Made by a program: the position numbers and the translations under genes. 35,799 bases of DNA from a virus: IMG/VR virus record IMGVR_UViG_3300037316_000006, positions 1 through 35,799 of that record. The stretch is one strand, 5' to 3'. Numbering within the stretch: the stretch's first letter is position 1; every line of letters begins with the position of its first letter. The notes under the pieces are model-generated. The model was not told where the DNA came from. It did not search any database and was given only the letters and a program-made list of their open reading frames with translations. This document shows positions 389 through 34,500 of the stretch, piece after piece.

Positions 389-3300
389 ATGAGCAACATA
401 TCAGGCGCACAAGGAGCATTACCAGGCGTACTTACAAACGTCGTAACACAGAGCGCCAATGCTTCTGTTCCAGGCGGCATTCGAGTCTCCGCAATAATAG
501 GCCAGGGAGCAAGAAGTGATGTCATAGTTGCATCGGCTAATGGTAACGGAAATGATGGTTTAAACACAACCTATACTGGCACTAACGGATCAGATGGAAG
601 GCATTTTCTATTAGATTTTTTTCCTGTAATTAAAAATAGAACTCAGCTATTTAAAAATGGCACCCCTCTAATAGGATTAGAAGAGCCAATACCAGTAGGA
701 TCATTTAGTGATTCTTATGATTATGTATTAGATATTACAACTGGAGAGATTGAATTACAAACTGCGCATCTTGTTGATCAGGGAGGAAGTTTTTTTACTA
801 ATGGTTTAACTAACGTTGGCCAAGGATCTCTTCAAAATTTATTATTGAAAGATGCTAACGCTCCAACAGAAACTTGGACAATAAAATGCGTTTCGGTACA
901 AAGAAATAATCTAAATGTCCCAATAGCATCGACAGCAAATTTCGTGGCTTTCGGTTCAGTATCAGGCAATGTTGTTGATCAATATGGAAATACTGTAGTT
1001 TGGGTGGCTAATAATACGATTGCGACAAACAGTATATTAAGTTTTAGTATACTTGAAACAGCTCCACCATTTCGTGAAGGAGATTATTTCACGGTTAAGA
1101 TTGCATCTGGTGTTCTCGTAAGAGGTAATAGCTTAACTGCATCATATATTGCAGTTGACGATATTAATAATCCTACATTTTTATCTAGTGAACCACAAAT
1201 TCAAACAAATTATGGTAAGCCAAGTCTTTCCAATACCCTGTCACTAGGTTGCCAATTAGCATTTTCAAATCAAACACCTGGTATAATGTGTGTTGAAGCT
1301 GCTCCACCACTACCAAGACGAGTTTCTTACGAATTAGAAACTAATTTTAATGCTACTTCCGTAAACTGTAATGATTTCGTAATTCCCCTTCCATTGGGCG
1401 TATCACCAGATCCCAACTCACAAATACACGTTTTCGTTACTAACCCATCTACTGGTATTGAAACACAACTTCTGCCTAATAAGTTCCCATTTTTCACTCT
1501 TGGTACTGGAGGTAATCCTGCAACTTGCACATTTGTTTTTGATAATACCATTGCTCCTGGCGGAAATTCATTCTCATATTCTGTTAATACAACAAATGCA
1601 ACAATTGGTTTCGCGCAAGATGGGTATCTAAACGCATCTCTAACATCACCAACAAACGCAGCATTTTCTTCGAACACAATTACATTTGAACAATCAAATG
1701 TCGGACAAACACTAACTATAATTGATGCCAATAACCCAGCAAACGTAGGATCTTTTGGTATAACATCTGTTTCTGGCGGAGTCGCTACAATTTCTGCTTT
1801 AGCCACACCACCTTTTGCAGATTTCGTTAATATTGGAGACACAACACTTGCAGCAGGATCATATAGTGCAGTTCTACCACAAGCAATAATTAATGTAGGA
1901 TCAACTACTGGTCTATATAATCCAAATGTTCCAGCAGGAGGAGCACCTGGAGTAATTTATGTAGCAAATACACTTGGCGCTGTTCAAACTATAACATATA
2001 CTGGGGTTACATCAACTTCATTTACTGGTTGTACTGGTGGAACTGGTACTCTTCCAACAGGCGCAGGAAAACAAGTTGGCAATGCATCGTTCCAACTAAT
2101 TAATTCACTATTTGGTACTCCTGTTCCAAATGCAGCTGGAGTTCTAACAATTGCTGCAGTTGCTGGTACTGGAACAGCAAACGTTATATCATCTGTTGAC
2201 ATAACATCATACTTTGTAAACGGATATCAGCTACTTATAAATTATCCAAACAGCCCAATAGCAACAATTGATACGCAGGGTGGGGGATATCCACTTGATT
2301 CAGGATTATTTGATGTTGTTGGCGCTATATCATCAACAGCATTCACAATAACTAAATCTTTCGTTTCTGAACACAATCTAAAATTCGAAGTAGTAGATAC
2401 AACACAAACTTCTGATTATCTAGTACTTAATCACAATATAGTTCCAAATGGTAATTCACTACGGGTTACAATAGTTGACGTCAAAGATGCAGCATTTTTC
2501 GATGCCGGTTGGGAACTAGCTCTCGCATCTCTAGAAACACAGGAAATAGATATTCTTGTTACATTGCCACTACAAACTATTTCTGTTATATTCCAAAATG
2601 CACTAAATCATTGTTTGGAAATGAGCAATATACTTAATAGAAAGGAACGTGTATTGTTCTTGGGCGCAATTAATGGCCTAATTCCTGCTAACCTTACTGG
2701 AGCACAATTGGCAGCAGTTGAAAGCCTTGGAGTGCTAGAAGGAATTCAGGGAAATACGGTTGCAGAAATTCTTGCTGGAGACACAGAAGACTTGGCAAAT
2801 TATAGTGTACCAAATGCATATGGTGAAACTTATCGCGCAGTATATTTCTTTCCAGATCAAATCGTTGTTCAAGTTGGATCAGATAATCAGATAATTGATG
2901 GTTTCTATATTGCTGCCGCCGCTGCTGGGTACATGAGTGGACAAGCCAATGTTGCAATTCCACTAACAAATAAGGTTTTGAGCGGGTTTACAATATTGAA
3001 CAACAGAACATACAATAATACAACATTGATGCAGTTAGCCGCTGCCGGTGTAACGACTCTTGCACCAGTTGCCGGCGGAGGAAATGTACTGTGGGGCTTA
3101 ACAACTACACAAAGCGGATTCCCACAAGAACAGGAAATTTCGGTTGTATTTATCAGAGATCGTGTTGCAAAGAGTTTAAGAACAGGCTTCAAAGGCTTCA
3201 TTGGAAATCCAGAAGATTCAGATACACAGAGTACCCTAATGGCAAGAGCCGTGTCGTTGCTTAATTCGTTCATCGCTGGTAATTTGATATTGAGCTGGAG

Positions 3301-3412
3301 CGCATTGACGGTAGCACAAGATCTTGTAGAACCAAGGCAATGGAATATAAGTTGTGTTGTGGTTGCCGTCGAGCCGATCAACTGGATTTTTATAACTGTT
3401 GGTATTAGTTAA
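389..3412 (+). CDS. Contractile tail sheath protein (oversized, 1007 aa)
   Basis: This is the protein that polymerises around the tail tube and contracts to drive it through the host envelope. The C-terminal third (from about residue 750) reads like the conserved sheath core: an alpha/beta part with QANVAIPLTNKVLSGFTIL, a VVFIRDRVAKSLRTGFKGFIG helix region, and a final strand pair around EPRQWNISCVVVAVEPINW ending four residues from the C-terminus, as in sheath proteins that exchange C-terminal arms. At 1007 residues it is far longer than T4 gp18 (about 660). The extra length is beta-rich insertion between about residues 150 and 700. One part, with SFTGCTGGTG near residue 555, resembles a small domain common in phage structural proteins. 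Another, at residues 395-470, is a module repeated in other genes here. The start has a good AAGGA site 6 nt upstream. The tube gene follows after 20 nt. Confidence 0.9.
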   Translation: MSNISGAQGALPGVLTNVVTQSANASVPGGIRVSAIIGQGARSDVIVASANGNGNDGLNTTYTGTNGSDGRHFLLDFFPVIKNRTQLFKNGTPLIGLEEPIPVGSFSDSYDYVLDITTGEIELQTAHLVDQGGSFFTNGLTNVGQGSLQNLLLKDANAPTETWTIKCVSVQRNNLNVPIASTANFVAFGSVSGNVVDQYGNTVVWVANNTIATNSILSFSILETAPPFREGDYFTVKIASGVLVRGNSLTASYIAVDDINNPTFLSSEPQIQTNYGKPSLSNTLSLGCQLAFSNQTPGIMCVEAAPPLPRRVSYELETNFNATSVNCNDFVIPLPLGVSPDPNSQIHVFVTNPSTGIETQLLPNKFPFFTLGTGGNPATCTFVFDNTIAPGGNSFSYSVNTTNATIGFAQDGYLNASLTSPTNAAFSSNTITFEQSNVGQTLTIIDANNPANVGSFGITSVSGGVATISALATPPFADFVNIGDTTLAAGSYSAVLPQAIINVGSTTGLYNPNVPAGGAPGVIYVANTLGAVQTITYTGVTSTSFTGCTGGTGTLPTGAGKQVGNASFQLINSLFGTPVPNAAGVLTIAAVAGTGTANVISSVDITSYFVNGYQLLINYPNSPIATIDTQGGGYPLDSGLFDVVGAISSTAFTITKSFVSEHNLKFEVVDTTQTSDYLVLNHNIVPNGNSLRVTIVDVKDAAFFDAGWELALASLETQEIDILVTLPLQTISVIFQNALNHCLEMSNILNRKERVLFLGAINGLIPANLTGAQLAAVESLGVLEGIQGNTVAEILAGDTEDLANYSVPNAYGETYRAVYFFPDQIVVQVGSDNQIIDGFYIAAAAAGYMSGQANVAIPLTNKVLSGFTILNNRTYNNTTLMQLAAAGVTTLAPVAGGGNVLWGLTTTQSGFPQEQEISVVFIRDRVAKSLRTGFKGFIGNPEDSDTQSTLMARAVSLLNSFIAGNLILSWSALTVAQDLVEPRQWNISCVVVAVEPINWIFITVGIS
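1571..1801 (+). repeat. Recurrent virion module, copy 1 (in the sheath)
   Basis: Sheath residues about 395-471. The pattern is: a strand, then AQDGYLNAS, then an Ala/Phe/Ser segment, then VGQTLTIID, then an Asn-Gly turn with SFGITSVSGGVATIS. The same order (x-DG-Y/I, A-x-F-x-S, G/D-T-I/L-x-I, N-x-G-x-F-x-I, I-T/S-I) occurs in three other places in the window. This copy is the most diverged of the four, so its membership is the least certain. Confidence 0.45.
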
Positions 3413-3432
3413 ATAGGATTATGGAGAATTAA

Positions 3433-4053
3433 ATGGCATTACTACCGCTTCAAACAGGATCAATCATATTAGGGCCTAACGGGCGCGACGCTACGTTTAC
3501 TGGTATAAGCACGAATATTATTATTAAAGTAGGCGGTAACGCAATTGGTGCAATAAAAAGTATTAAAATTACAGAAGCAAGAAGTATTGGTATGGTAGAT
3601 GAAGTTGGAACCGACGGACATATTGATAGCGTTCCAACAAAATCTACTGATATCAGCGGATCTTGCCAGCGTACACGTTTCGATCTAATGAGAATTACAG
3701 AGGCATTTTCTCGCGACTTCCTACATGTGACGGCACAACGTATTCCATTCGATATCGACATATATGATAATTGGAATGGTAGCGGTCCAAATAGCATAAT
3801 TACAACAGTAAAAAATGTGTGGATTAAAACATTGGATTATACATATCAAAGTCAAGATTGGATTATAGTAGACGATATGTCATTTGAAGCAGAAACTATA
3901 TATTCAACACTTAATGGTGGCCCTGCTGCTACTGGTGGAAATAGAGGAATAATCTTGCAGCAAAATCCAATTGAACAGCAGGCCGACGTAGGTATGAGAC
4001 GTGGCGCCCTCGATGTGCCAGGACTTTTTTCCGATTATTTCACTAATCCTTAA
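3433..4053 (+). CDS. Tail tube protein
   Basis: A 206-residue protein directly downstream of the sheath, which is the usual place and size for the myovirus tail tube (compare T4 gp19, about 160 aa). It stacks as rings to form the DNA channel inside the sheath. The sequence alternates short beta strands with one helix (RTRFDLMRITEAFSRDFLHV, about residues 82-101) and contains IPFDIDIYDNW and WIKTLDYTYQSQDWIIVDDMSF, consistent with the single-domain tube fold. A GGAGA site lies 5 nt before the ATG. The C-terminal 40 residues (Gly/Gln-rich, then GALDVPGLFSDYF) look extended. The identification rests mainly on gene order plus fold-like pattern; I see no family-specific catalytic motif, and none is expected. 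Confidence 0.8.
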   Translation: MALLPLQTGSIILGPNGRDATFTGISTNIIIKVGGNAIGAIKSIKITEARSIGMVDEVGTDGHIDSVPTKSTDISGSCQRTRFDLMRITEAFSRDFLHVTAQRIPFDIDIYDNWNGSGPNSIITTVKNVWIKTLDYTYQSQDWIIVDDMSFEAETIYSTLNGGPAATGGNRGIILQQNPIEQQADVGMRRGALDVPGLFSDYFTNP

Positions 4054-4180
4054 TATAGTGATTATATAATCTAATAATCAATTCCTTAAAATCCTGCTCA
4101 GAATAGTCTAATTTTGCCGTATTGCATTGTTTACAACACGGAACAACATTATCAATAATATAACCATTTATTCGTTCTTG
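4043..4180 (-). pseudogene. Remnant of an HNH homing-type endonuclease (C-terminal end only)
   Basis: Read on the minus strand, 45 codons are open between a TGA at 4181-4183 and a TAG at 4043-4045. They encode a run containing INGYIIDNVVPCCKQCN, then TAKLDYSEQDFKELIIRLYN. This is the typical C-terminal half of small phage and mobile HNH endonucleases (pattern GY-x-x-DNVVPCC-x-x-CN-x-x-K followed by a short helix). There is no start codon in this frame, and the N-terminal half (the usual zinc ligands and LDRI segment) is missing. A possible scrap, LILLDKNE, is seen just upstream in another frame, which would fit decay by frameshift. The fragment overlaps the last 11 bases of the tube gene and stops where the muramidase gene begins. 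It is almost certainly non-functional. Confidence 0.7.
4060..4071. repeat. A+T-rich perfect 12-bp palindrome after the tube gene
   Basis: GATTATATAATC is its own reverse complement and begins 6 nt after the tube stop codon. It lies inside the HNH remnant, so it may simply be leftover coding sequence. It lacks the G+C stem and T-run of an intrinsic terminator. It partly resembles the TGATATATA motif found in other gaps. Confidence 0.3.
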
Positions 4181-4235
4181 TCAAGCAAAATCAACCAACC
4201 AATAAAATAGCATACCATTATAGAAAAGGATTATA

Positions 4236-5069
4236 ATGGCTAATTATTTTAAGGGGTTTGATATAAGCTCAATGCAAGGATATCCAATAAACTTTAATGC
4301 AGTAAAAAATGCAGGATATGATTTTTGCATATTTAGAAATGGTATTGGAAATGACGGTCATGATGCTTATTATTCGAAATATTTAACTGCCGCCGCTGCT
4401 GCAGGAGTATATACTGCGTGTTATAATTTCATTTATCCTCTACCAACTGACAATGTTCACGCTAATAGAGACCCTATTGATCAGGCAAAACTTCATTATT
4501 CAACCTCTGAAGGGCAACCAAATTTTGTTGATGCAGAATGGCCAGCACCAATTGATTTTGCTAAATGGGGAGTTAATGCAACATTTATAAACCAATGGAT
4601 GCTGGCATATCTACAAGAATACGAGAGTTTAAGTGGTCAGCAGCCTATAATTTATACATATCCGGATTGGGCGGCTAATGTCCATTTTGAGCCAGCATTC
4701 GCAAATTATAGGCTTTGGATAGCATCATATACAACAACGCCATATATTCCTAAGCCTTGGACTGATTGGGCATTTTGGCAGAATAGCAGCGGGCCCGTTA
4801 AATTACCAGGCACCAATATTGCTGTTGATACTGATTTTGCAAAAGATCTGTCTTTATGGACTTCTTCTCCGGTTGTAGTACCACCTCCAGTGCCGGTTGT
4901 TAATACGCCACCGCCACCACCAGTACCTGTTACTCCTCCACAACCGCCTCCAGTCGTTGTTTTGCCTCCACCACCTCCTCCAGTGCCAGCTCCAGTACCG
5001 GTTGTTTCAAACATATTTACAATAATATGGAACTTCATTACAAATCTTTTTAGAAATCGAAATATTTAA
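4236..5069 (+). CDS. GH25-type muramidase with proline-rich linker and hydrophobic C-terminal tail
   Basis: A peptidoglycan-cleaving N-acetylmuramidase of the glycoside hydrolase 25 family, acting either as endolysin or as a tail-associated lysin. Residues 1-210 carry the family pattern: GFDISSMQG at the N-terminus (Asp9), the barrel strands YDFCIFRNGIG and VYTACYNFIYPLP, the acidic catalytic pair in FVDAEWPAP (Asp99 and Glu101), then QQPIIYTYPDWA, YRLWIASYTT, WTDWAFWQNS and AVDTDFAKD. Residues 212-258 are almost only Pro and Val (a rigid linker), followed by a hydrophobic/aromatic helix NIFTIIWNFITNLF and the basic end RNRNI. There is no signal peptide. AAAGGA lies 5 nt before the ATG. It interrupts the usual tube-to-chaperone order, next to an HNH remnant, which suggests acquisition. 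I am sure of the family and unsure whether it acts in entry or lysis. Confidence 0.85.
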   Translation: MANYFKGFDISSMQGYPINFNAVKNAGYDFCIFRNGIGNDGHDAYYSKYLTAAAAAGVYTACYNFIYPLPTDNVHANRDPIDQAKLHYSTSEGQPNFVDAEWPAPIDFAKWGVNATFINQWMLAYLQEYESLSGQQPIIYTYPDWAANVHFEPAFANYRLWIASYTTTPYIPKPWTDWAFWQNSSGPVKLPGTNIAVDTDFAKDLSLWTSSPVVVPPPVPVVNTPPPPPVPVTPPQPPPVVVLPPPPPPVPAPVPVVSNIFTIIWNFITNLFRNRNI

Positions 5070-5105
5070 TATACTATTTCTTTCAAATAATTTAATCTGC
5101 TGATA

Positions 5106-5130
5106 TAGTAGTATATATAGGAGACTACTA
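5106..5130 (+). promoter_or_regulatory. Hairpin displaying the Shine-Dalgarno site of the tail chaperone gene
   Basis: TAGTAGT (5106-5112) pairs perfectly with ACTACTA (5124-5130), leaving an 11-nt loop ATATATAGGAG that contains the AGGAG ribosome-binding site. The 3' arm reaches the A of the ATG at 5130. The hairpin would hold the binding site single-stranded but could occlude the start codon. A 7-bp, mostly A-T stem is weak, so any effect on translation is inference. Confidence 0.4.
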
Positions 5131-5783: not shown

Positions 5784-5808
5784 TAAAGGAACCTGATCAT
5801 AGGTTCCT
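5754..5808 (+). promoter_or_regulatory. -1 programmed ribosomal frameshift element
   Basis: Three parts are visible. (1) The slippery heptamer A_AAA_AAA at 5774-5780 is in the zero frame (CTA AAA AAA) and is followed at once by the TAG stop. (2) A perfect 8-bp hairpin follows: AGGAACCT at 5787-5794, loop GATCAT, AGGTTCCT at 5801-5808, starting 6 nt after the heptamer. (3) A Shine-Dalgarno-like GAGGAGG lies at 5754-5760, 13 nt upstream of the heptamer, reminiscent of the stimulatory element of E. coli dnaX. After slipping, translation continues from 5780 (ATA GTA AAG ...) with no stop until 6130, giving a fusion of 333 residues (217 + 116). This matches the G/GT and E/E' arrangement of tail chaperones. 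The 7-A run could also allow transcriptional slippage. Confidence 0.88.
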
Positions 5809-5815
5809 GTGGTTT

Positions 5816-8268: not shown

Positions 8269-8275
8269 GACATAG

Positions 8276-9190: not shown

Positions 9191-9204
9191 AGAAAGATCA
9201 AGTT

Positions 9205-16295: not shown

Positions 16296-16300
16296 AGTTA

Positions 16301-16309: not shown

Positions 16310-16329
16310 GTATAAAGGAATAGATTATA

Positions 16330-18396
16330 ATGCCATGTAGACCTTTGACATCAACACAGCTTGCACCACCACCATTTGGAGGTTCTGGATTTTCCCCCCA
16401 GCTACCTAATCTAAACATACCATTTGGATCACAAGGTATGCCAGATTTATCCGAACTATACCAAATACTTGCATTTATAACTCCAGCTGGAACATTTAGA
16501 CCACATTTTGATCCACATTATTTAAATAATGTATATGGCGCTATCAATGATCTTTTATCAAAATTTATGCCATTTTTAATGATATATAAATTTTTATTAC
16601 CAGTTTTAAATCTAATTTTATGTATAATTGAAGTGCTATGCGCGTTAATGAATCCGTTTGCATTATCGAGGGCAATTTCTAGATTATTTCGTGTTTGCAT
16701 ACCAGAATTTTTAGCTTTGTTTCCATTCTTTGCTCTTATTATTATGATTATATCGTTACTACTTCTTATTATATCATTAATTATATACCTTATAGAAAGA
16801 ATAATTATAATTATGGAAATACTTATTGCTAACGTAATAGCATTAGGGCGAGCCGTTCAGAGAAATGAGGGCGATAGTATAGTTGCAATTTTAATAAAGA
16901 TAGGCGATCTTCTATGTTTTCTACAAAATCTATTTATCATATTTGGCGTTATTCTATTAATAGTTGAGATTATAAAAGCTATTCTTTCTCTTGGTTTTAA
17001 TATACCTCCTTGTGGAAGCGGATCAAGTTGTTGTGATAGCACTGTATGTCCACAGTTTATACAGCAGAATGGAAATTTAACATCATCAACTGGTAATTTC
17101 TTATATTATAATCAAGTTGGTATTGATAGTGGTCTAATATTGCCCGCCGGTTTCCCACCAATTGTAAAAACCGTACGATCAGAAAGTTGGCAATTTTATG
17201 ATCCAAAGCTTACTCAATCGCAAGCTTTTATTAACATAACGAACGCGTTTGATTTGCCGGCAGGAACATCGAAAGTATTTTTCCCAGGAGGCACAAATTA
17301 TACAGCATCAACGTCTCCTTCATCAGTTCCATATACAATTAGTTTTCGGTTTTTCTACAATCCAACAGCTTTCAATGTAACAGATCTAAAAGGCCCAAGA
17401 TATGTTCGAGCAAACAATGTAATAGTTCAAAACCCACCAACATCCGGAGTAGCATCATATACTGGACATGGTTTTGTGGCCCCTTTCAATGGAACGATCG
17501 ATCTAATTGGCGGAACTATGACAGAGGATGACGGAACCGATATTATCAATTCACAAGGACAAACAACTACACTAAATGCATTTATACACATACCAGTTTC
17601 TAATTCTGGGGTTGCAACAAATGACGGAGTACTATTTTCAGATCTCACATACACATTTACTATTAACTACGAAGTTCTTATGGGAGCTTCATTAATAACG
17701 GTCGGGTGTATGCCATCGGTTACAGCTGACAAGGATTTTATTAATAACACACTTGGTACGCAATTCAACACAAATGGCACTAAACTGGCCGCAATACCAT
17801 TACCAGATATTGCTACTGCTCAAGACTGTCTAACATCAGCCGTTACACAATTTACACAAAGCATATCGGTTGATACTGCTAATGCTTTTCAATCAAACAT
17901 AACTAATTGTTTAAACACACTACAAGATCAAGCACAAACAGCATTAGTATCGGTTATAAATGCAGGTTATGATCCATATAAAAGCACATTCTCGTTAGAT
18001 CCGGCTATCCAATTTACAAGTCTTCCAATTGTTGTTTCAATCTCACTAAATGAGAGTTCAGGGCAATCAATGACTACTAATTTACCAGGAGCAGCCGCGG
18101 CACAATTGGCAACCGGTCTTTCTGGTGTTGCAACGCTTGGAACTCTTGGGCAATTTTCATATGACGGACATGGTTTATTTCTTGTCAATATTACAAGCAA
18201 TCAACCAGGTAATGGAAAAATAAAAATAGCATTTGATAATTCATATATTAGCGTTCTCAATAACCCAACAGATATTACACAATCGCCATCTGTTATAGTT
18301 ACAGAAGTTCCATATACATTTGTTTCATCACCAGCCATATCTTCTGGTCAACCAAGAAGAAATGAAGGTGATATTGCAAGAGAGGGCGCAATTTAA
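16330..18396 (+). CDS. Baseplate-locus protein with a very hydrophobic, multi-span N-terminal region
   Basis: A 688-residue protein I cannot assign to a family. Residues 1-75 are Pro/Gly/Phe-rich. Residues about 79-221 are strongly hydrophobic: MPFLMIYKFLLPVLNLILCI, FPFFALIIMIISLLLLIISL, then YLIERIIIIMEILIANVIAL, a short polar break (AVQRNEGD), and LFIIFGVILLIVEIIKAILS. This suggests three to five membrane-spanning or tightly buried helices. A Cys-rich turn follows (Cys228, 234, 235, 240), which could bind metal or form disulfides. Residues 245-688 are beta-rich and soluble-looking, with Thr/Asn-rich strands. It lies between the spike and the gp25-like wedge and overlaps the next gene (TAATG), so it should be made with the baseplate. 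AAAGGA lies 10 nt before the ATG. A membrane-contact or channel role in genome entry is a hypothesis. Confidence 0.6.
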   Translation: MPCRPLTSTQLAPPPFGGSGFSPQLPNLNIPFGSQGMPDLSELYQILAFITPAGTFRPHFDPHYLNNVYGAINDLLSKFMPFLMIYKFLLPVLNLILCIIEVLCALMNPFALSRAISRLFRVCIPEFLALFPFFALIIMIISLLLLIISLIIYLIERIIIIMEILIANVIALGRAVQRNEGDSIVAILIKIGDLLCFLQNLFIIFGVILLIVEIIKAILSLGFNIPPCGSGSSCCDSTVCPQFIQQNGNLTSSTGNFLYYNQVGIDSGLILPAGFPPIVKTVRSESWQFYDPKLTQSQAFINITNAFDLPAGTSKVFFPGGTNYTASTSPSSVPYTISFRFFYNPTAFNVTDLKGPRYVRANNVIVQNPPTSGVASYTGHGFVAPFNGTIDLIGGTMTEDDGTDIINSQGQTTTLNAFIHIPVSNSGVATNDGVLFSDLTYTFTINYEVLMGASLITVGCMPSVTADKDFINNTLGTQFNTNGTKLAAIPLPDIATAQDCLTSAVTQFTQSISVDTANAFQSNITNCLNTLQDQAQTALVSVINAGYDPYKSTFSLDPAIQFTSLPIVVSISLNESSGQSMTTNLPGAAAAQLATGLSGVATLGTLGQFSYDGHGLFLVNITSNQPGNGKIKIAFDNSYISVLNNPTDITQSPSVIVTEVPYTFVSSPAISSGQPRRNEGDIAREGAI

Positions 18397-20105: not shown

Positions 20106-20132
20106 TATACTCGCATAGCATAGAGGTTTGCA

Positions 20133-20564: not shown

Positions 20565-20567
20565 TAG

Positions 20568-20576
20568 TGATATATA
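20568..20576 (+). promoter_or_regulatory. TGATATATA motif, copy 2 (candidate late promoter or processing site)
   Basis: Identical to the 9-base motif before the 16330 gene. It begins 4 nt after the gp25-like stop codon and ends 17 nt before the J-like ATG, followed by TAGGA. Function is unproven. Confidence 0.3.
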
Positions 20577-20593
20577 ATAGAGTAGGATAATTA

Positions 20594-23500
20594 ATGGTTA
20601 ATATTCGCAGCACAAACCAAATTGTATTAAGTCTTATTGATTTTTTTAAAACAGCACTGCCTAATGCTGATATAAAACCAGGCAGTGTAATTAGAGACTT
20701 AATGATTGATGGCCCATCATCTCAAATAGCATTATTATATGATAGTCTTTCTAAAATATCAAATCTACAATCATTACGGCTAGTTATGGGCAGTGACTTG
20801 GATCGATTAGCACAAAACTTTGGTAGCACCAGGAATAGTCCAACCAAATCATCTGGAGTAGCATTACTAACGTTTTCATCAATTCCGGCCACCGTAGCAA
20901 TAAATTCAGGTTCACTGCTTACTGCATCTAATGGATCTACTTTTTCTGTGTTAAATGGTATATCTGTTAATTCAGCCTCAGCTAACACATATAAATCTAC
21001 GGCAGTTCAATATCAAGCCAATCTTGCATTTCTTGGTATTACAGATCAATATGCTGTTGAGGTTTCTGTTCAGGCAACAACTCCGGGGTCTGCTGGGAAT
21101 ATATCACAATACGCAATTAATACAACATCAATTCCAGGCGTATCAAATGCAACAAACACTTATCCATTTACTGGCGGTGCTGACCAAGAGACAGACGCGT
21201 CATTTAGAAACCGTGTTCTTGCTATATTTAGTGGATCTAATATAGGAACTGCTTTAGGGTATAAAAATTTGGCATTATCAAATACTGCAGTTTCAGACGC
21301 GGTTGTCATAGGGCCAGGAAACCCATTAATGATCCGAGATGGAACAGTTGTTATTCAAAATCCTGATGGAACATTTACAATTATTTCGGAAGGAACGGGC
21401 GGAAAAGTAGATATTCTAATTCTAGGATCAATATTAAGCACATTTACTGATACATTTATATATTTAGATAAAAGCAATGATAATGACCCGTCTAATTCAC
21501 TAAATAATTTTGTTCTTGGACAAATAATAGGAGATGCTAATAAGACAATAACACAAAAGCGATTAGATGATATAACAAATGGAACACTACCAGCGCAGCC
21601 AGTACAGGAAATACTTTCGGTAACGGGTACTTTAAGTGGAAGCAATTTTATTTCAGCATCAACTAATAGTTTAGGAATAACAACTGGTAATTATAGCTTA
21701 ATTAAGGACACAGGTAATTATGCTGGTAGCCCTTGGGGATTTGATACATTTCATTGGACATCAAACCAGATAGTGTTCAATGAAGATTTAATTAAATCGC
21801 AGTTTAATGGGCAAGATCCAACAACTTTTTCTGGTGTTTTGGAAATACCGAATATTACACAAAATATATCAATTACAAATGAGAATAGCAACGTATCATT
21901 AACAAACAACACTGTTATACAATTACTACATATACCAGCCACTAATGTTACACGAGTATTTAATACTAATACTGGTGAAAGCTATACTGTAATAAACCAA
22001 AATTTTGCAGGCACAGGAAGCACAAACACAAGCGGACAAATACAAATTTCAGGGAACACACTGCCATCAACTAGCGATATATTACAGGTAGATTATACAT
22101 GGGTTGTGTCTTACGATCCATATAGCGATTATGATGGCAAATATCTAAATAATAACCCTCGAATTTCTGGCGATAGTGTGGATTGGGGTATTTCAAATAT
22201 AGTTAGAGATGAACGTGTTTTATTTGCCGTGAATTCGTCAAATACTTTTTTCATAGGCTCAACATCGCTGCCTGTAACAACAGTTGTGTCTGCTAATATA
22301 TTTTCTTCTACTAGGGGGGTAGTTGTTACAAGCACAGTACCAAATTTTACTAATAGGTTAATGGTTAATATTGCCGCAATCGACATATCAATGAATACAA
22401 TTGAGTTGATCAGGCTTTCTGATACACCACATGAAGTTTATAATACGGCAGAAGGAGATGGGTTTTTAATTAACAAAAGAATAGTAGTAGGAACACAAAT
22501 AAAATATAACACGCTTGTAATTCTGCCAACTGATACAACCGCAGTCTTGGGCAGTATAATTGAGATAATATATAACCCAACTGATGTATTTAATATGGTT
22601 GGATCTACTGGTAGTTTTTCTGGCAATCAAATAACGGTACCGGTAGACAATGTTTCACCAGAAGTATTCGTTGCAGATACTTTTGTATTATGGCAGATTT
22701 TTAGTAACAACGCCGTGATAGCATCAGGTAGTGATGGATATATAATACCAATATCAGGAGATCCTCTTCAAGCTGATTTTTATAGTCCATCAAACAGTTT
22801 TGCCGGCATCTCTATAAGCGACACAATAGTTATTATGGATAGCACGTCAAGCGTATCAAATAATGGTGTATTTGCTATTATAAAAGTTCCACCAGCAACA
22901 GCATCAAACAACATAACAATACAAAAATCAAATCAAATATATATGGACGTTACATATATAGCAAACGTTCCAAATTTGCTTACAGTTGGTATTACAAATT
23001 TCCCAATTAGCAGGGCCGGCAATGGATATATTTTAAATAATAGCGTTGGGTCCGTGAATGTAGTTGAATCAAATACTATGAGAAGAGAAAATCAAACGAT
23101 ACAACTCAACGGATCAAGTCAAACATATGTAACATTGAGTATAGATAATGTCGAGTTTTCGTTATCACCATCTCAAATTGTGTCTGTTATAGATCTAACA
23201 TCACAATTAGAAATATGGAATATAGATTTTCCAGGTACAGTATCTACAAATGCAAATAATGATTATGTGTTGACATTTTCTGGTTTTAATTCTCCCACAG
23301 CTGGTGATAATGTACTTATAATTTATTTTGCGCAGGACGTAGCTCGTGTACAGCCGTTTACTTTCTATAACCAAATTTTTAAGATTGATTTTCAAAGTTT
23401 ATTATTTAACTTTACTACCAATAATTTCTATGTACCAGTTCAAAACTTTATTCATGAAATTGGAATTACGTTTGACATAATTGATACAACAACCGGAATG

Positions 23501-24940
23501 ACAATTGGATCAGCTACAGATGGTTATATTTCTGCCGTATCATCAAATGCCGCCATTGCAACTTTTGGCAGTGATACATTCAATTTCGCAAATATTGATG
23601 ATCTTACTGGTAAAACAATAAGATTAATAAATACTGTTAATGTCAATAACAAAGGTTTCTATGACATATTCTCAATTATTTCTAATAACAGTATAACGAT
23701 CGGCTTGCCACTTGCTAATTTTGATGTAAATCAAGTTAGTGTTGTTAGGATTAGAGATGGTAAAGATCTATGGACAACTTCTGGCACAATAGATGCGTTA
23801 AATAACATACTAAACCTGCCACAAAATGTACTAGCAATACAAAATGACGTCGTGGCTGTAATTCTATTTGGTAATAAGGCACTTCACCAATCACCAACTA
23901 AAATATCAGTAACTGTAGCAGACCAGGTTGTTAATACTGGCATTGTAACAATTGCGGGCACCACTGTAACACAAGTAGCGTCCATTATATTCCCAGCAAT
24001 AAATAATGGATTACGACAAAACGCATTATCAGCATTTAAAACATTTCTTGGATTAAGCTCTAATGCAAATATATCATCAAATAACTATATAGTTAGGGTT
24101 GTAAGTGTTAAAAAAGTGATAACAACTACCAACAATCAAATATTAAATACTGCTGCAACATACGATATTTTTGGAACCACATTATCTAATAACTCACTAT
24201 ATCCAAACGAGATGTTAGAAAATGAAACCATTCAAAATACAGAGTTCATTCTTCCAGCTACGATAAATAATATAAATAACACACCAAAAATAGGCGATAG
24301 TTTATTAATAACTTTTTATTATGCAACAGATGGTAATTCGGAAAATTTGTATTTCACTAAAAATGGAACACTATATACAAATAATAAATTTGCACTAGTA
24401 GATCAAATATATATATCAAGCGGATTTAATTCATCTCAATCAACAAGATTTACTGTTGCAGCATTCACGCAACCAGCAACTGGTTCACGATATGACGCAT
24501 TTTATAATTATCTAGCACCAAAAGAAAATGAAAGGATATTAATACAATATAACTATAATCAGCTAATAACTAATGTGACATTTACAATAGAAAATGCAAG
24601 ACCGATTGATGCTGATGTTCTTGTTAAAGCTGCTGCAGAGGTTCTTGTTGATGTAACATTAAGCGTAATTGTTTCTCAAACAAACATTAATAGTGCCGCA
24701 ATTGTTTTACAAAATGTTAAAAATGCAATCACGGGAACTATAAATACAAACACACTGGGTGCTACAATTTACTCATCGGCACTTATAGCTACTGCACAAG
24801 GAATAACTGGTGTAAATCTCGTAACAATTAATTATTTTAATAAGGATGGGTCTGCTGGACAAGTATCATCCTTAACTTGTCAAGAAAATCAATATTTTGT
24901 TGCAAACACTATAACTGTTAATCAGCAAATAGCATCGTAA
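20594..24940 (+). CDS. Baseplate J-like wedge protein with large insertions (1448 aa)
   Basis: A baseplate wedge protein of the phage J/Mu gp47/T4 gp6 group, which forms the ring that changes shape on contraction. The N-terminal 230 residues follow the family closely: IKPGSVIRDLMIDGP, GSDLDRLAQNFGSTRNSPTK, a beta domain with PATVAINSGSLLTASNGSTF, VQATTPGSAGNISQYAIN and PFTGGADQETDASFRNRVLA. The C-terminal 100 residues also look J-like (DADVLVKAAAEVLVDVTLSV, then ALIATAQGITGVNLVTINYF). Between them, about 1000 residues of beta-rich sequence are inserted, including two copies of a module shared with other genes here (residues 697-779 and 957-1037). P2 J is about 300 residues, so the insertion is very large. 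TAGGA lies 6 nt before the ATG. It follows the gp25-like gene, as expected. Confidence 0.85.
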   Translation: MVNIRSTNQIVLSLIDFFKTALPNADIKPGSVIRDLMIDGPSSQIALLYDSLSKISNLQSLRLVMGSDLDRLAQNFGSTRNSPTKSSGVALLTFSSIPATVAINSGSLLTASNGSTFSVLNGISVNSASANTYKSTAVQYQANLAFLGITDQYAVEVSVQATTPGSAGNISQYAINTTSIPGVSNATNTYPFTGGADQETDASFRNRVLAIFSGSNIGTALGYKNLALSNTAVSDAVVIGPGNPLMIRDGTVVIQNPDGTFTIISEGTGGKVDILILGSILSTFTDTFIYLDKSNDNDPSNSLNNFVLGQIIGDANKTITQKRLDDITNGTLPAQPVQEILSVTGTLSGSNFISASTNSLGITTGNYSLIKDTGNYAGSPWGFDTFHWTSNQIVFNEDLIKSQFNGQDPTTFSGVLEIPNITQNISITNENSNVSLTNNTVIQLLHIPATNVTRVFNTNTGESYTVINQNFAGTGSTNTSGQIQISGNTLPSTSDILQVDYTWVVSYDPYSDYDGKYLNNNPRISGDSVDWGISNIVRDERVLFAVNSSNTFFIGSTSLPVTTVVSANIFSSTRGVVVTSTVPNFTNRLMVNIAAIDISMNTIELIRLSDTPHEVYNTAEGDGFLINKRIVVGTQIKYNTLVILPTDTTAVLGSIIEIIYNPTDVFNMVGSTGSFSGNQITVPVDNVSPEVFVADTFVLWQIFSNNAVIASGSDGYIIPISGDPLQADFYSPSNSFAGISISDTIVIMDSTSSVSNNGVFAIIKVPPATASNNITIQKSNQIYMDVTYIANVPNLLTVGITNFPISRAGNGYILNNSVGSVNVVESNTMRRENQTIQLNGSSQTYVTLSIDNVEFSLSPSQIVSVIDLTSQLEIWNIDFPGTVSTNANNDYVLTFSGFNSPTAGDNVLIIYFAQDVARVQPFTFYNQIFKIDFQSLLFNFTTNNFYVPVQNFIHEIGITFDIIDTTTGMTIGSATDGYISAVSSNAAIATFGSDTFNFANIDDLTGKTIRLINTVNVNNKGFYDIFSIISNNSITIGLPLANFDVNQVSVVRIRDGKDLWTTSGTIDALNNILNLPQNVLAIQNDVVAVILFGNKALHQSPTKISVTVADQVVNTGIVTIAGTTVTQVASIIFPAINNGLRQNALSAFKTFLGLSSNANISSNNYIVRVVSVKKVITTTNNQILNTAATYDIFGTTLSNNSLYPNEMLENETIQNTEFILPATINNINNTPKIGDSLLITFYYATDGNSENLYFTKNGTLYTNNKFALVDQIYISSGFNSSQSTRFTVAAFTQPATGSRYDAFYNYLAPKENERILIQYNYNQLITNVTFTIENARPIDADVLVKAAAEVLVDVTLSVIVSQTNINSAAIVLQNVKNAITGTINTNTLGATIYSSALIATAQGITGVNLVTINYFNKDGSAGQVSSLTCQENQYFVANTITVNQQIAS
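22682..22930 (+). repeat. Recurrent virion module, copy 2 (in the J-like protein)
   Basis: Residues 697-779 of the J-like protein. It starts LWQIFSNNAVIASGSDGYI, has ADFYSPSNSFAGISISDTIV, then NNGVFAIIKV, and ends NNITIQKS. It aligns almost without gaps to the copy in the dockerin protein (WQI...ASGxDGxI...DTIV...NNGxFxI...NNITIQK). The two share an exact 18-base DNA run, AACATAACAATACAAAAA, at 22910-22927 and 33625-33642. Confidence 0.75.
23462..23704 (+). repeat. Recurrent virion module, copy 3 (second copy in the J-like protein)
   Basis: Residues 957-1037 of the J-like protein: GITFDIIDTTTGMTIGSATD, then GYISAVSSNAAIATFGSDTF, then LTGKTIRLIN, an NNKGFYDIF turn, and NNSITIG. It has the same order of conserved positions as copy 2 but is more diverged at the DNA level. 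Confidence 0.65.
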
Positions 24941-24944
24941 AATA

Positions 24945-27900: not shown

Positions 27901-30900
27901 CAAATTTGGTCGAGATAATAGTTCATACTAAGCCACAAATTATTGAATCAGCCTTTTCAAATTGGTCTCTTGGTAGTAGTTTGCTGAACCCACAGAAAAT
28001 CACAACAACTGGGTCATTTGTGTTATCTAGTGCAAAATATGGAAGCGGTGTTATAGTAGACACACCTGGACAAACTATAAAATTTCCTGTGTCATCTAAT
28101 TTACGATTGGAACAGGGAGCCTTAGAAACGTGGGTAATACCAGAGTGGAATGGTATAGATAATGAAGCAGAATTAACAATTACTATTTTGAAAAATGGTA
28201 TTCCACTATTAGAAGAACAAGTGTTTATAGGCCCAGGAGCTTATCACCCAATTTTTTCTGACGGATATAGTTTTTCGATCAGCACAAAAGACAAAGTGCT
28301 AGGGGTTCCTAACGAAAGCAAAGATGGGGTTTTTATTTATTATACGTCAGATCCGAATGGCGATTTCAACAGATGGTATTTAGACGTATTAGATGGTTAT
28401 GCAGATGGGTATGGTATAAAGAATTATAACATTACGGTAAAGACCAATGGCAAGTTTTATGATGTTAAGTCAACGCTAAATCCACAACCATCTTCGGATA
28501 GTATTTTCAGCGGTACTAATTCTCTAACATACACAATATCTGGACTAACGAATATTGACGGATACTTCGATGGATATTATAATGACGGTTATACGAATGG
28601 AATCACATTTATAGCAGACAATCATCATTATTTATTTGATTTCGGAAAATCGTTAAGCTGTAACCGTTTTTCAATATATAAGGACGAAAGCGGATATATA
28701 AACCTCCGAGTAATCGATAACGAAAATAATGTATATATCGTAAGCTCAGATGTGTCTAGTTGGCGAGCAGGCCAACTTCACCATATAGCGGCTGCTTGGG
28801 CATTGAACACGAAAAATGGAAGAGATGAGATCCATTTATTCATCGATGGATTTGAGGTTCCTAATATTATAGCCTATAAGAGCAAGGTTCTGCCATATTC
28901 AGGAGAGGCATTTAGAACCATTGACCCAGAAATTGTTGGCACTATAACAAGTCTCCCAATGACATTTCCGGTCAAAACTGAAATCAATTTATATGCAAAT
29001 ATAGCAGTATTTTTAAAGCATACAGATGGATCAATACAAGAAATACCTGGGCAAAGAGCACTTCATCCGGCATATACTATTGGTGTGGATAGCAATGACA
29101 ATGTTTCTATAACGATATTAAACACCGCTGTATCAGGAGATATAGTAATTATTGAAACGCTAGGTTTAAACTTAAAATATGTTGATCAAAAATTTTATCT
29201 GTGGAACGGTATTGGAAACGATGGTTATGTAAATACAATAATGACACGACTACCAGCTCCAGCATTATTAGCAGATGTGAAAATAACTCATATATTGTTA
29301 GATGATTTTCTTATTGGCCCCCGAAACTCTGTGGTTGTTGGTGATATATTTACATGCAATACAATACTAACAGATCAGCCATCAATATCTGATAATGGTA
29401 GGACGCTAAAAATAAAAATAACTGGCACAAATGTTAATTATACAGCTCCGGTTACTATTACAATAAATGGCACAATAAATGGGGTTTCAAATACAAGCCA
29501 AACCTTTTCATTCTCCGCAAATGGAACACAGACCACAACTGGATATCAATTTTCACATGTTAATTATGTAAATGTTATCTGCACTTCGGCTAACCCACTA
29601 CTTAACTGTATTGTGCTATCAATAGAAGAACTTTATCCAATAACAATATCTGAAAACAGTATAACAGTTCCAATTATTAGGTATAGTTATCAAATGTTTA
29701 TTGGAAACACACTAAGCAGTCCTGGAGGAAATACCATTGTTGATCCAAATGCATTCTTTTCAATTGAAACTATAGGAAATTATCTTGTCATAGTATACCC
29801 TCCATCAGCCGCTGGTCAGTATAAGATTATGGCAGTTTCTGAAGATCATCACACGGCTACTATTAGCGAGATTCTGCCGGCATTTATAAATGGAACCTAT
29901 CAAATCTTAAACACAACAACATTCAGAAGCGGATTACAAAACGGATTTTTTACATTTGAGTTAGCAGATTCTGACGGTTATGGATCACCATACGATTTTG
30001 TTCAAGGATTATATAAATTTGAATATTATACTTACCTTTCAATACCAATTAGTGCCGGAACTCTTTATGGATATGTTGGGTCAGACATTTATGGAAAGAA
30101 CATGTTTAATGGTACGATAAATGATTTCCAAACAATTTCCGAAAAACTTACTGATACGCGGGTTGGTGAAACGGCACTAATCAATCAAGAAACAATAACA
30201 AAAGATTTTAATTCACTTGTTAAATTACAACCAACAGTTAACTCTCTTATGTTATTAAGTTTTAATACTTTCCCATTCACTAATTCCGCACTAGTGTATA
30301 CAACGGCAGATAAAACTCCAATTCAATCATCTTATGCTGTTAATGGTAATTTCGGCAAAAGCGTTTGTATAACAGATATACCACTAATAATTGATAACGC
30401 CGGCATTCTTCATTCTAAATCACAAGGCACAATTGAGTTTTGGGTAAGTCCTCTATATGATACTGGAAATGATCCAAATTATCGATATTATTTTGATGCT
30501 ACCGCTGCGACTAGCGAAAAGGTTGTTAGTATAAATAATGCTACAGTTATTGTATCGGGATTTATATCAAAGGTTTTAAGTGTAAAAGTACAAGTGGGAA
30601 ATCAATATATAGATTATTTTGCTGGTGGAAAAATAGACGCAAATATGCAAACTATTTATTTAAACCGATCTTTGCCTAATCAAAACACACCAGTGGTTGT
30701 AAATTATATTCCTGTTGGCACCAACGGAGATCGTATATCAATATATAAAGACCCATTCGGGTATATAAATTTTGATGTAGTGGCATCTGGTTTAGAATAT
30801 CAAATTAGGGCCCCCGCATTTTGGTCAAAAGGAACTTGGCATCGTTTAAAAGCGCAATATATTTTTAATACTGGTCTCGGTAGTGACGAGATTAGGTTTT

Positions 30901-31427
30901 TTGTAGACGGCTATGAGAGAGGAAATGTACTTGTTGGAGATGGCTATGTATTTGGTATTGGGCTAACACCAGTGTTTGGTTCATATTATATCGGGCCAAA
31001 TGCTATAAATAAAAGCATAGTATTTAAAGATACAATTAATCAATTTTTTATTGGGTCTGATTATGCCGGATCTGGCAATGCTTACGCGTTAATTGATAAT
31101 TTGAGAATAAGTGATATTTTTAGACCATTGTTTGTGTTATATGGTGAAACACTAGACGTAAATTACAGTAATAATTTATCAATTGTGTTTCCAGTTGTGG
31201 AAGATTTATATACCACATTGTTATTAGATTTCGATAGTTTAGTGGTGTTAAACACTAATTTTGCCACATTAAAAAACAGGACTACTGGATTATTTGATTT
31301 TACTATTAATGTATTTGATTCGTTTGGTATTATAAAGGGTTCTGCGGTTGTTAAACAAGTATTTGAAGAGCTTGTAAATATACTTAAGCCTGGAAATTCG
31401 CGATGTTTTATTAATTATATAGAGTGA
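24945..31427 (+). CDS. Giant tail/baseplate protein with two LamG-like (concanavalin-fold) domains (2160 aa)
   Basis: Starts 4 nt after the J-like gene, where gpI or gp7-like wedge and tail fibre genes usually lie. Residues 1-90 look like an Ig-like (SwmB-type) domain (ITAKFSENLNEDI ... LTPLAAYFISFI). Residues about 150-1000 are beta-rich and contain three short repeats of the form Y-x-V/I-DY-x-x-G (PGQYSVDYNTGNVYVF near 411, GDYQIDYINGIVYCL near 645, NRGDYLVDYSYLADDIIISY near 887). Two LamG-like jelly rolls follow. The first is at about 1045-1320 (GALETWVIPEW, SIYKDESGYINLRV, LHHIAAAWAL, IHLFIDGFEVPN). The second is at about 1820-2055 (GTIEFWVSPLY, SIYKDPFGYINFDV, WHRLKAQYIFN, IRFFVDGYERG). 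LamG domains often bind carbohydrate, so host-surface contact is plausible. There is no strong ribosome-binding site. Residues 1105-1216 are packed with DGY triplets. Confidence 0.7.
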   Translation: MANLRLISVVVINSSTITAKFSENLNEDIGLSNIVLNSQTPGVPTPLVLSVSIIQNTITITTQPLTPLAAYFISFISTPGQLFNSLNGDAVILNDGVTNIQLILGPLDSENPIQTYLLNFLHDGVYNIEPPSVIYQYIQGLSTVLSEALYDIGQSGNENYLSFTVTDELQTRGGGAFDRLDNESAYEVLRVGINPTGNNLNSVTPVLAFPSYPVSLQSTNNIETLIANAENDVAGSLNLNTLVLNLSQRFIIILNSIVFIYNSSIYTYDISKYGYQILNSIYDPDFAFTYLQLSDSQIRLSEQVLNDPLFSLENIASIQVNYQYKDTGKIINSSSLVVDSVLLSGRETVQPLENIFTLQHAPIVTNNDVVGSVGSVVFIDPNALPGSNIPHPAFIYEITFSLGYLPSLPGQYSVDYNTGNVYVFGDTIKQDGTGPYPPLATYLYRRVYIPEIDYVYDVGSLDLVSLPFGSLVNSSANIIYNYEDVLAQGVDYMADVHIESLNENVQNRLIALNAIQPLNFPVTDVFRIYNQTTGEIYPVLRWTDSTIYFNYVKAPNIISEIGERATFQDVLNETLFVSSTIPNGSANIFKIFLSNNNIIAQTQDCVGSSINTSIYFSNTTIFMQERYFDPVVSQAINNARLQNIGDYQIDYINGIVYCLVSLLQSFSIGNISYKRGYIDPEFSQAITVNNIYYRFSVLSQIIKTFQYISFSNGSILPATFDISNESFFMGNITQPYIVVGGRVGYESVDATFIPNVTNNIKFVRSLYEYDDVAFNINPINFAQATTSNGMNISVNSLQFNEYHSVQFDGTNYYFFANTNLLYQSPNIAMAITVRRLSDSVNLSATVVLGSPFKVMLANINSPHVGDAVELNYSYTINPGERVVVDYNRGDYLVDYSYLADDIIISYEYGDNVLDFRQSSALSQGDTYYVTYKVGALRDALLANFGTLINIPILNTLDVAFNRERYRDALMAAMQSFTEGPTKTSMSNLVEIIVHTKPQIIESAFSNWSLGSSLLNPQKITTTGSFVLSSAKYGSGVIVDTPGQTIKFPVSSNLRLEQGALETWVIPEWNGIDNEAELTITILKNGIPLLEEQVFIGPGAYHPIFSDGYSFSISTKDKVLGVPNESKDGVFIYYTSDPNGDFNRWYLDVLDGYADGYGIKNYNITVKTNGKFYDVKSTLNPQPSSDSIFSGTNSLTYTISGLTNIDGYFDGYYNDGYTNGITFIADNHHYLFDFGKSLSCNRFSIYKDESGYINLRVIDNENNVYIVSSDVSSWRAGQLHHIAAAWALNTKNGRDEIHLFIDGFEVPNIIAYKSKVLPYSGEAFRTIDPEIVGTITSLPMTFPVKTEINLYANIAVFLKHTDGSIQEIPGQRALHPAYTIGVDSNDNVSITILNTAVSGDIVIIETLGLNLKYVDQKFYLWNGIGNDGYVNTIMTRLPAPALLADVKITHILLDDFLIGPRNSVVVGDIFTCNTILTDQPSISDNGRTLKIKITGTNVNYTAPVTITINGTINGVSNTSQTFSFSANGTQTTTGYQFSHVNYVNVICTSANPLLNCIVLSIEELYPITISENSITVPIIRYSYQMFIGNTLSSPGGNTIVDPNAFFSIETIGNYLVIVYPPSAAGQYKIMAVSEDHHTATISEILPAFINGTYQILNTTTFRSGLQNGFFTFELADSDGYGSPYDFVQGLYKFEYYTYLSIPISAGTLYGYVGSDIYGKNMFNGTINDFQTISEKLTDTRVGETALINQETITKDFNSLVKLQPTVNSLMLLSFNTFPFTNSALVYTTADKTPIQSSYAVNGNFGKSVCITDIPLIIDNAGILHSKSQGTIEFWVSPLYDTGNDPNYRYYFDATAATSEKVVSINNATVIVSGFISKVLSVKVQVGNQYIDYFAGGKIDANMQTIYLNRSLPNQNTPVVVNYIPVGTNGDRISIYKDPFGYINFDVVASGLEYQIRAPAFWSKGTWHRLKAQYIFNTGLGSDEIRFFVDGYERGNVLVGDGYVFGIGLTPVFGSYYIGPNAINKSIVFKDTINQFFIGSDYAGSGNAYALIDNLRISDIFRPLFVLYGETLDVNYSNNLSIVFPVVEDLYTTLLLDFDSLVVLNTNFATLKNRTTGLFDFTINVFDSFGIIKGSAVVKQVFEELVNILKPGNSRCFINYIE

Positions 31428-31440
31428 AAATGAAATAATA

Positions 31441-31449
31441 TGATATATA
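31441..31449 (+). promoter_or_regulatory. TGATATATA motif, copy 3 (candidate late promoter or processing site)
   Basis: Third exact copy of the 9-base motif, 14 nt after the LamG protein stop codon and 51 nt before the next ATG, in the 73-base gap. The remainder of the gap is A+T-rich with AAGGA just before the ATG. There is no terminator hairpin. Confidence 0.3.
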
Positions 31450-31500
31450 ACAATAAACAAGGTAAGCCAATTAAAACGCATATAGTAATAATAAGGAAAA

Positions 31501-34500
31501 ATGGTTAATAGAATACCAGTTAGTTTGCCAGAACCAATATATTTTGACGCAATGGACGTTGACAATACCGATCTAACGCTTCAGCAAATTTATAATGATC
31601 AAATAACAGCAGGAATAAAGTCTAATCATTTTGGAAGTGGCGTATTACCAAATTCATTAATACAACGAGTATTGTTTGATAGTGAAACAACTGTTGGTCT
31701 GCTCGATGGAAAAGCATTAAACGCACAGGCTCAACCATCCGATAACAATCTTGGAAATCAGTTAGAGATATCTTTATCAGGATCAATGGTGGCAGGAAAT
31801 AGAACAGTAAAAATTCTTATTATAGGTCTGGATTTTCAACAAAATTTACAATATGATGCTGTGATTTTTCATAGAAATGAAACTCAATTTACATCTAAAC
31901 ATTATACAGCAATACTAACAATATTATTTAATGATCTTACAGGAATATCAACACAGTCATTTAATCTTGGAGGCAGGGTTCTTATTAAGGAAGCAAACCC
32001 ATTAACATTATCAAGAGACTGTGTAATGATTTCACAATCTACTGCGCCAAATTTATTTTTTAGAGATTTTTTCGTTTCTGTTGGTGGAACACTGTCGAAT
32101 GTGTTAACTGCCGCTCTACCATCATATAATATAAATACACTAAATATACAAACATCTTATATTCAACTTGCACAAATATTAGAAAATGATGTAAGCTCAC
32201 AAATCGGACAAAAATTTTTAGCCACTACAAATAATATTCAAAAAATAACATTATTAATATCAGTTAATAACACAATAACACCTAATGATTTTTTATGGAC
32301 TGGCGATCTTCTTATTAGTATTTATCCGCTACAATCAACGGTTTCTTGCCCAGCAGATATAGTGCCACAGATTGCAATTGATTTTGACCCATCTAATGTA
32401 CCACTTGCACAGTTAAGTTTTAATTATAGTTCTATGTTAGCTAATGGTATATTGCTATCTACTGTGCCACAACCAGTAGACTTTGTGTTTAGCAATACAC
32501 CAGTTGCTTCTGGTTTAATGATAGTACCAAATAATTATTATGTCGTTACTGCTAAACGAGCAGGATCTGATGATACTTGCGAAATACAATTTGCTGTTGG
32601 ATCTAATTCATCAACAATAACAAGAGAGACTATTTTTAATGGCAATGTATGGGTAGATATTCCTGGGCAATCTCTTTGGTTCCAGGTTTGGACTGATGCA
32701 GCAAAAGTGTCTGATGGTCAAGCATATGATTCTGGTAATGGTGTCCTTGTTCCTAAAACGAAAATAAACCCATTAACGGCATTAACACAAAATTATGTGC
32801 TTAACCAGATACCGTTTGTTAGGAACGATCTTTTTTATGGCCTACTACAAGCTACAACACAAAAAAGTGTCCCAGTTCAAGATGAAAGAACTGGTAATAA
32901 TATAGACTCTCAACAGCAACTTGTACCAACAATTACATTATTAAATACTAATGGCCTCTCTAATATTCAAAATGTTTCTGACCCTCTTATACTAGGTACT
33001 ATAAAAGATCAAAATGTTAAAGTATATAGTTTTGCGACAGCCACATCAACAGCCGCATTTCATGAATATGGATTGGTAGAAAATCAAGTTGTTATTAAGG
33101 TAATTACTGATACTACTGATGGATATAGATATGATCAAAATATAATAGAATTAGTTTCTGAACTAGTTGCCGGAAATTTAAATGGGGCACAATTTACTCC
33201 AAATTTAGCTAATCCATCTGTATTTTATAGAATAGCTAATGCTGAACTAATTACAATGCTCTATGGAGATGTTGATGGTAATGGTATAATAGACGATAAT
33301 GACATTCTTCTTGCCAATCAACTTATTAATCAAAATTTAAATATAATACCGACACATAATCAATATATTGTCAACACATCATTATTTGCTTCTGACATAC
33401 ATGTTTCTTGGCAGATATTAAATGGGATAACAGTTGTTGCGTCTGGTACTGATGGAATTATAACGGCTAATCCTAATAACGGAGCTATTGCAAATTTTAA
33501 TAGCGTATCAGGCAATTTTAATAGTATAATAAATATAGGTGGAGACACAATTGTATTATCTAATTCAACAGCTGCTGCTGGAAATAATGGTTCATTTACA
33601 ATAGAATCACTTATAGATAATAATAACATAACAATACAAAAAACTTATTATAATTCTGACACAATTCTACAAATTATGAGGGGAAATATTACTGGTAATA
33701 TGGTATTAAGTTCAACAGATATTAGCTACATAACGGATTATGTAGAAGCGGTTGCACCATTTCCAGCTACCACATCGCCAGCGAATAATGTAGGTAAAAC
33801 ATTTAACGCTATAAGATTTACATTAGAGGAATATGTAGATAGAGAAGATGATTACCCTTCTACTAATGCAAACAGATCAACAACATTGCACCCATTACCA
33901 GATATATTTCTTGATGGGTATGCACTATTTGCCGGTGTAGACCTGGAATTAAATTCAATACAATTTAATGTAGTTCAACAATTAGTATGGAACGATTATG
34001 AGGTTTTGACCAACTCAAATCCACGATTACTTACATGCTCATTCAACTATCAATCAGGCTATACAAACCCAAATTGTGGCATTGCTGGTATTACAACGGC
34101 GACTTCATATCCAATGGCTCCGTCGTTTGATCCTGGAAGAAATGATTTTTTCATACCAGATAACCTAATTGTTAATACTGGTGGACAATTCATAAGACCA
34201 GATGGTTATTTTATGAAGATGGATTTTGAAATTGGTACGGTAACTATTGAAGTTCCACCAGTGTCTTTTGATATGGAGCATAATGTTAATTTACTAACCG
34301 ATTTTGTGGCAGATTTTTCTGGTACTGGATATACTAATCTTGGATACCCTGCTATGAAATTTGCTGACTGCACAAATGTAACACTAGACGCATTGGTATT
34401 AAATCAAATTAGGTTTGGTGTAGCGGTTCAATCATTTTCTCCTCAACTAACTGGATTAGATGGATATTGTTTAGCAGGCGTGATTGTTGATGGAAAAATT

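Follow-up and report, generated by a model that had tools for sequence, protein, structure and literature searches.

A family of predicted beta-rich modules in several tail proteins of large uncultured phages

It is already known that phage virions can carry promiscuous beta domains, that tail sheaths can have extra domains and that tail proteins show domain mosaicism (PMC9230969, PMC10684548). One such case is that of the Ig-like domains, which, according to Fraser et al. (2006) as cited in PMC9230969, are a promiscuous beta domain carried by different virion proteins, exchanged between them and proposed to bind cell-surface sugars weakly. Type 3 sheath proteins possess extra beta-rich domains outside the conserved sheath core, the number of which rises with genome size (PMC9230969). 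In large phages these extra domains are situated at a distance from the tube; adhesion or virion stability has been proposed as their role (PMC9230969). Baseplate and receptor-binding proteins belong to the mosaic classes of tail proteins, and domains are common to different functional classes (PMC10684548).

The module family described here resembles the Ig-like domains in being a beta domain that occurs promiscuously on different virion proteins, and differs from them in its restriction, so far as found here, to one uncultured phage group and in the presence of several copies in different proteins of one genome. Moreover, no Pfam Ig family reached its cut-off when 33 members were searched with hmmscan (CelD_N at best E 0.073 in 2 members, InlJ_IG at E 0.013 in 1), and no Ig domain occurred among the 50 PDB matches listed for a model of pLDDT 92, none of which attained E<=0.001. 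Like the type 3 sheath domains the module is a beta-rich sheath insert; unlike these, the same family also occupies a baseplate J-like protein and a dockerin-repeat protein. In contrast to the reported mosaicism, it has no match among the families of the libraries searched, and its spread is among different proteins of the same particle. The endosialidase beta barrel (PF12195) was considered and rejected, being hinted at by a single copy, c4 (1 of 33 members; 13.6 bits, E 0.067, against a 35-bit cut-off); endosialidases appear among the non-significant structure matches with a poor superposition (rmsd about 16), which sets the module apart. New are the module family itself, its fixed four-copy distribution across proteins of one particle and its clean empty and filled sites; a description of the module was not found in the literature searched, most subscription journals lying outside that scope. 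An undescribed beta-domain family thereby becomes available that marks tail proteins of 350-470 kb phages whose tail genes resist annotation, and the role of the extra sheath domains of large phages becomes testable with one domain in several structural contexts.

The window, that is, the whole stretch of 35,799 nucleotides analysed (IMG/VR record IMGVR_UViG_3300037316_000006), contains a contractile-tail gene cluster with a sheath gene, baseplate genes including J, and genes for a LamG protein and a dockerin-repeat protein (Table 1). The sheath protein matches Pfam Phage_sheath_1 at E 4e-6 over residues 823-906, slightly below the curated cut-off, as well as the PHROG tail sheath at E 0.002, and its homologues in relatives are 43-64% identical. 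By position, the 206-aa protein immediately downstream is a putative tail tube. The J-like protein is recognised by Pfam Baseplate_J (E 2.5e-24) and by a PHROG baseplate wedge subunit (E 9e-40). For the dockerin-repeat protein, Pfam gives a Dockerin_1 hint at E 0.094 over residues 588-619, under the curated cut-off, and an alignment judged by eye displays the two tandem calcium-binding-type repeats of a dockerin. Both repeats are clear in 7 module-free homologues; in the window the first is clear and the second degenerate. Elsewhere in the window, a candidate glycoside-hydrolase/DUF1906-type lysin with a proline-rich tail (4236-5069) separates the sheath region from the tail genes downstream, and the final, incomplete gene (34748-35797) encodes putative tandem bacterial Ig-like repeats.

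Table 1. Module copies, host proteins and neighbouring features in the window
Feature	Position	Strand	Remarks and basis
Tail sheath protein, 1007 aa	389..3412	+	Hosts c1 (S1) and decayed S2
Module c1 (S1), sheath residues 391-470	1559..1798	+	HMM; found in all 14 sheaths of the first comparison, from two clades
Unrelated insert between S1 and S2, type I-x-V..ITYTG..FTGCTGGTGTL	1844..2068	+	Sheath alignment
Decayed second sheath copy S2, residues 565-660	2081..2368	+	Profile of S2 orthologues, alignment
Baseplate J-like protein, 1448 aa	20594..24940	+	Hosts c2 and c3
Module c2 (J2), J residues 696-778, within a beta-turn	22679..22927	+	
Module c3 (J3), J residues 956-1037	23459..23704	+	Orthologue in 25 relatives, missing in 7
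LamG protein, 2160 residues	24945-31427		
Proposed c5, LamG protein	29691..29906	+	Membership in the module family not supported
Dockerin-repeat protein of the tail cluster, 1079 aa	31501..34740	+	Hosts c4
First dockerin-like repeat of the split pair, GDVDGNGIIDDNDILLANQLI	33262..33357	+	Pfam hint, alignment
Module c4 (D), residues 633-716, between the dockerin-like repeats	33397..33648	+	HMM, alignment, AlphaFold
Second, degenerate dockerin-like repeat, downstream of the module insert, GNITGNMVLSSTDISYITDYV	33682..33744	+	Alignment with 7 relatives

The original prediction held that four segments of the sheath, the J-like protein and the dockerin-repeat protein are copies of one module. This was borne out by leave-one-out HMMs, in which each held-out copy was recovered by a profile of the other three (c1 at E 4.9e-7, c2 at 6.2e-12, c3 at 5.5e-12, c4 at 1.7e-10; overall E 5e-7 to 6e-12), and the presence of the same module in three different virion proteins is thereby confirmed. 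Since such E-values stem from small databases, the gap to noise weighs more than their absolute values, and the best non-copy stretch in the 16 window proteins scored E 0.08-0.7 with the three-copy profiles. Profiles made from two copies retrieved held-out ones in 10 of 12 cases (E 2e-6 to 6e-15), the misses being c1 with the c2+c4 and with the c3+c4 model. Smith-Waterman comparison against 1000 shuffles yielded z values of 16.7 for c2-c4, 14.7 for c3-c4, 9.8 for c2-c3, 9.5 for c1-c3 and 6.2 for c1-c2; c1-c4 was the sole pair devoid of significance. The latter, together with an AT-rich window and its many beta-rich tail proteins, might be taken to indicate that the resemblance reflects a generic beta-rich composition dominated by N, G, I and T. 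This reading is scarcely credible, being refuted by the profile, profile-profile and structural results: extended to relatives, the family comprises 55 distinct HMM-recovered copies, every one below E 1e-13, followed by a half-match at E 3e-4 and then by 0.15; the best match to reversed sequences, using a 33-copy profile, was 0.022; and hhalign probabilities among the four positional families range from 96.6 to 99.7%. In addition, a decayed second sheath copy that the original prediction had not listed was found in the window at E 1.4e-6 by an S2 profile made without the window, and it is orthologous to an intact copy that stands in tandem with S1 in relatives.

A weaker fifth copy had also been proposed, in the LamG protein, and this one did not hold. 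No family HMM recovers the region (best E 0.57), and hhalign reaches 61% over a 31-column half-match; the region is kept in most LamG homologues, and the pattern in common with the module is confined to the C-terminal half. At another site of the same protein (window 28947-29042, residues ~1335-1366), several relatives (L001, L008, L013 and others) possess an insert of 145 aa, made up of two ~80-residue beta units, that is missing in the window. The second half of this insert aligns with the C-terminal half of the module at an hhalign probability of 87%, a possible distant superfamily link. The search of viral contigs with the LamG protein gave nothing usable.

The AlphaFold model of c4 has a mean pLDDT of 92.2 and a pTM of 0.83, with predicted strands at residues 18-27, 30-42, 49-54, 69-73, 83-92 and 95-99. 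Searched against BFVD, it retrieved just three matches at E<=1e-3, all from uncultured phages. These are a dockerin-domain protein, a J-like baseplate protein and a tail sheath, with query TM values of 0.85, 0.68 and 0.64, respectively. As the BFVD models come from a public library, this constitutes an independent form of the superposition of predicted copies that had been suggested as a check. The model of the sheath copy is weaker (pLDDT 70.6; strands 23-29, 32-38, 51-56, 69-74, 77-90 and 93-98) and has the same strand order as c4, plus an extra short N-terminal strand. Its structure search returned nothing at E<=1e-3; the J-like protein stood in third place and had the highest probability of all (0.98). 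Foldseek against the PDB found no confident neighbour of the c4 model (best E 0.44, query TM <=0.45), so the fold gives no pointer to a lectin. The statement that the module belongs to no named family likewise stands, as neither Pfam nor PHROGs nor the solved structures offered a convincing match. Most columns of low entropy contain hydrophobic residues, Gly, Ser or Asn (F15, D37-G38, S54, F59, N81, G83, I87, I98), a pattern suggestive of a scaffold whose surface varies and which has no invariant catalytic set. Apart from the family proper, a 495-aa protein on a contig of 335,988 bases (L038, 1906-3390) contains a half-module match at E 1.7e-4 to 2.8e-4, GRFITITGAANANNNGTFLI; it belongs to no Pfam family and shows a weak PDB hint to the cell-wall amidase 4epc (E 6e-4).

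Alignment with relatives reveals empty and filled sites in the J-like protein, the dockerin-repeat protein, the sheath and the homologues of a further gene of the tail cluster (16330-18396 in the window), in keeping with the original view of the same insert in several virion proteins. In the J-like protein, c2 breaks the turn between two apparent strands (QITVPVDNVS ... QIYMDVTY); the site is a short turn in 16 aligned relatives and is free of any module in all 32 distinct J homologues. The c4 copy separates two dockerin-like repeats that are joined by a short linker in 7 homologues. An extra copy, X, resides in one phage (L006) in the homologue of gene 16330-18396, after FYNP and before AFNP, at a site that is empty in the window protein and in 15 further homologues, of which one is partial; the linker preceding it, TTIFENGINTLQKPF, resembles the one preceding the dockerin-protein copies, TTTVTNGYNTFIDIF. 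In the sheath alignment, S2 is present in one clade and missing in the other. Because losses would have to be repeated in all other lineages, c2 and X are best read as gains. These empty and filled sites amount to a natural experiment on domain gain in phage virion proteins, from which the order of gains and likely donors may be deduced.

Surface exposure is inferred from the hosts, namely sheath, J and a tail-cluster protein, and from the sites, which are loops. Taken together, sequence comparison and predicted structures establish one family with one fold, empty sites in relatives, a constant four-copy set and lineage-specific extras. The modules constitute a single family of six-stranded beta domains of about 85-100 residues, plugged into probably exposed loops of tail proteins that are otherwise unrelated. 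The phages carrying them form a clade of very large viruses with contractile tails. On sheath and baseplate the modules would face outwards and, repeated over the surface, might adhere weakly to host-cell glycans or, alternatively, serve for cementing. By analogy with known virion domains, we regard it as rather probable that one module family in exposed loops of unrelated tail proteins forms such an outward-facing adhesion or cementing surface. The module is accordingly described here as most likely a surface display domain for weak adhesion or cementing, two roles that are not firmly told apart. The earlier suggestion of a common decoration domain fits both the insertion sites and the extra sheath domains of other large phages (PMC9230969), the fit being one of analogy.

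Searches of IMG/VR identified homologous loci on contigs as long as 473 kb, with sheath proteins of about 925-965 aa and J proteins of about 1365 aa as hosts. The module alignment, too variable, gave nothing usable as a query for the collection. The family profile was run over 43 contigs. Wherever coverage allows, these 43 contigs have a constant set of two copies in the sheath, one in J and one in the dockerin-repeat protein, and nine contigs of 349-473 kb each contain exactly these four confident copies and none besides. Compared with this set, the window has c2 in addition and a decayed second sheath copy. An assembly contact is favoured by the constancy over the nine contigs, by the tandem pair that most of the clade has in each sheath subunit and by the single copies in two baseplate-region proteins. 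Modules of adjacent sheath subunits, and those of sheath and baseplate proteins, would in that case bind one another and lend stability to the long tail, with no part in cell adhesion; cementing has been proposed for an extra sheath domain of phage 812 (PMC9230969). Partner copies are nevertheless dispensable in one clade (L016-L022), in which J and the dockerin-repeat protein are without module and the sheath, where found, has a single copy, and S2 is decayed in the window, so that we consider a pure assembly contact possible and rather doubtful. Outside this group, tblastn with two module members gave no match in 50,697 GenBank phage records, and the search for relatives in bacterial and archaeal genomes gave nothing usable.

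In a tree of 56 module rows and 107 columns, the sheath copies form positional clades (S1 100/98, S2 98/90), and J3 and D cluster by position too. Judging from this tree, the constant copies are ancient and have been inherited without change of position. c2 and X group with D (D+J2+X support 99/99); c2, on a long branch, adjoins the D copies found in the window and in the relatives closest to it (98/93). This suggests that c2 and X were donated by a dockerin-protein copy, either from their own genome or from a related one, and new copies would then arise from that source. AU tests rejected neither D alone (p 0.21) nor D+X (0.41), D+J2 (0.37) or J2+J3 (0.31). An origin of c2 by tandem duplication of c3 inside J is disfavoured, c2 as sister of c3 having a p-AU of 0.041 in one of several tests, for a hypothesis named after the tree had been seen; the grouping of J2 with all J3 copies (p 0.31) is not rejected.

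An exact 18-base run common to c2 and c4, AACATAACAATACAAAAA, does exist at positions 22910 and 33625. Its weight as evidence of recent DNA copying is small, given that 5% of synonymous resamplings (60 trials) reach 18 bases, and no other pair of copies shares a DNA run above its own synonymous null. The proposed recombination within the genome is hence plausible in the light of the 99/99 grouping and remains unproven in view of the AU values of 0.21-0.41 and the weak 18-base run. A bolder and doubtful extension would make one lineage-specific domain a genome-wide surface tile, with the dockerin-protein copy as donor cassette for loops of other tail proteins encoded by the same genome; if true, sheath, baseplate and other tail proteins would present the same binding or cementing face.

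Lineage-specific extra copies on long branches (J2 and X), the decay of the window's S2 and the unrelated insert next to it are also what a neutral passenger would leave behind, that is, a foldable domain tolerated in surface loops and spread by occasional illegitimate recombination with no selected function. S1, S2, J3 and D are, however, kept as orthologues across diverged genomes and cluster by position; since random passengers should be lost often, this retention renders such a history improbable, and a surface display domain for adhesion or cementing is preferred. The insert beside S2 occurs in the window and is missing in 13 aligned relatives (14 sheaths). In a related phage, another protein located close to the sheath (L030, 4484-6001) has a stretch 49% identical to it, and a LamG homologue (L013) has a similar but weaker one; by sequence similarity, this insert is a second domain common to different proteins.
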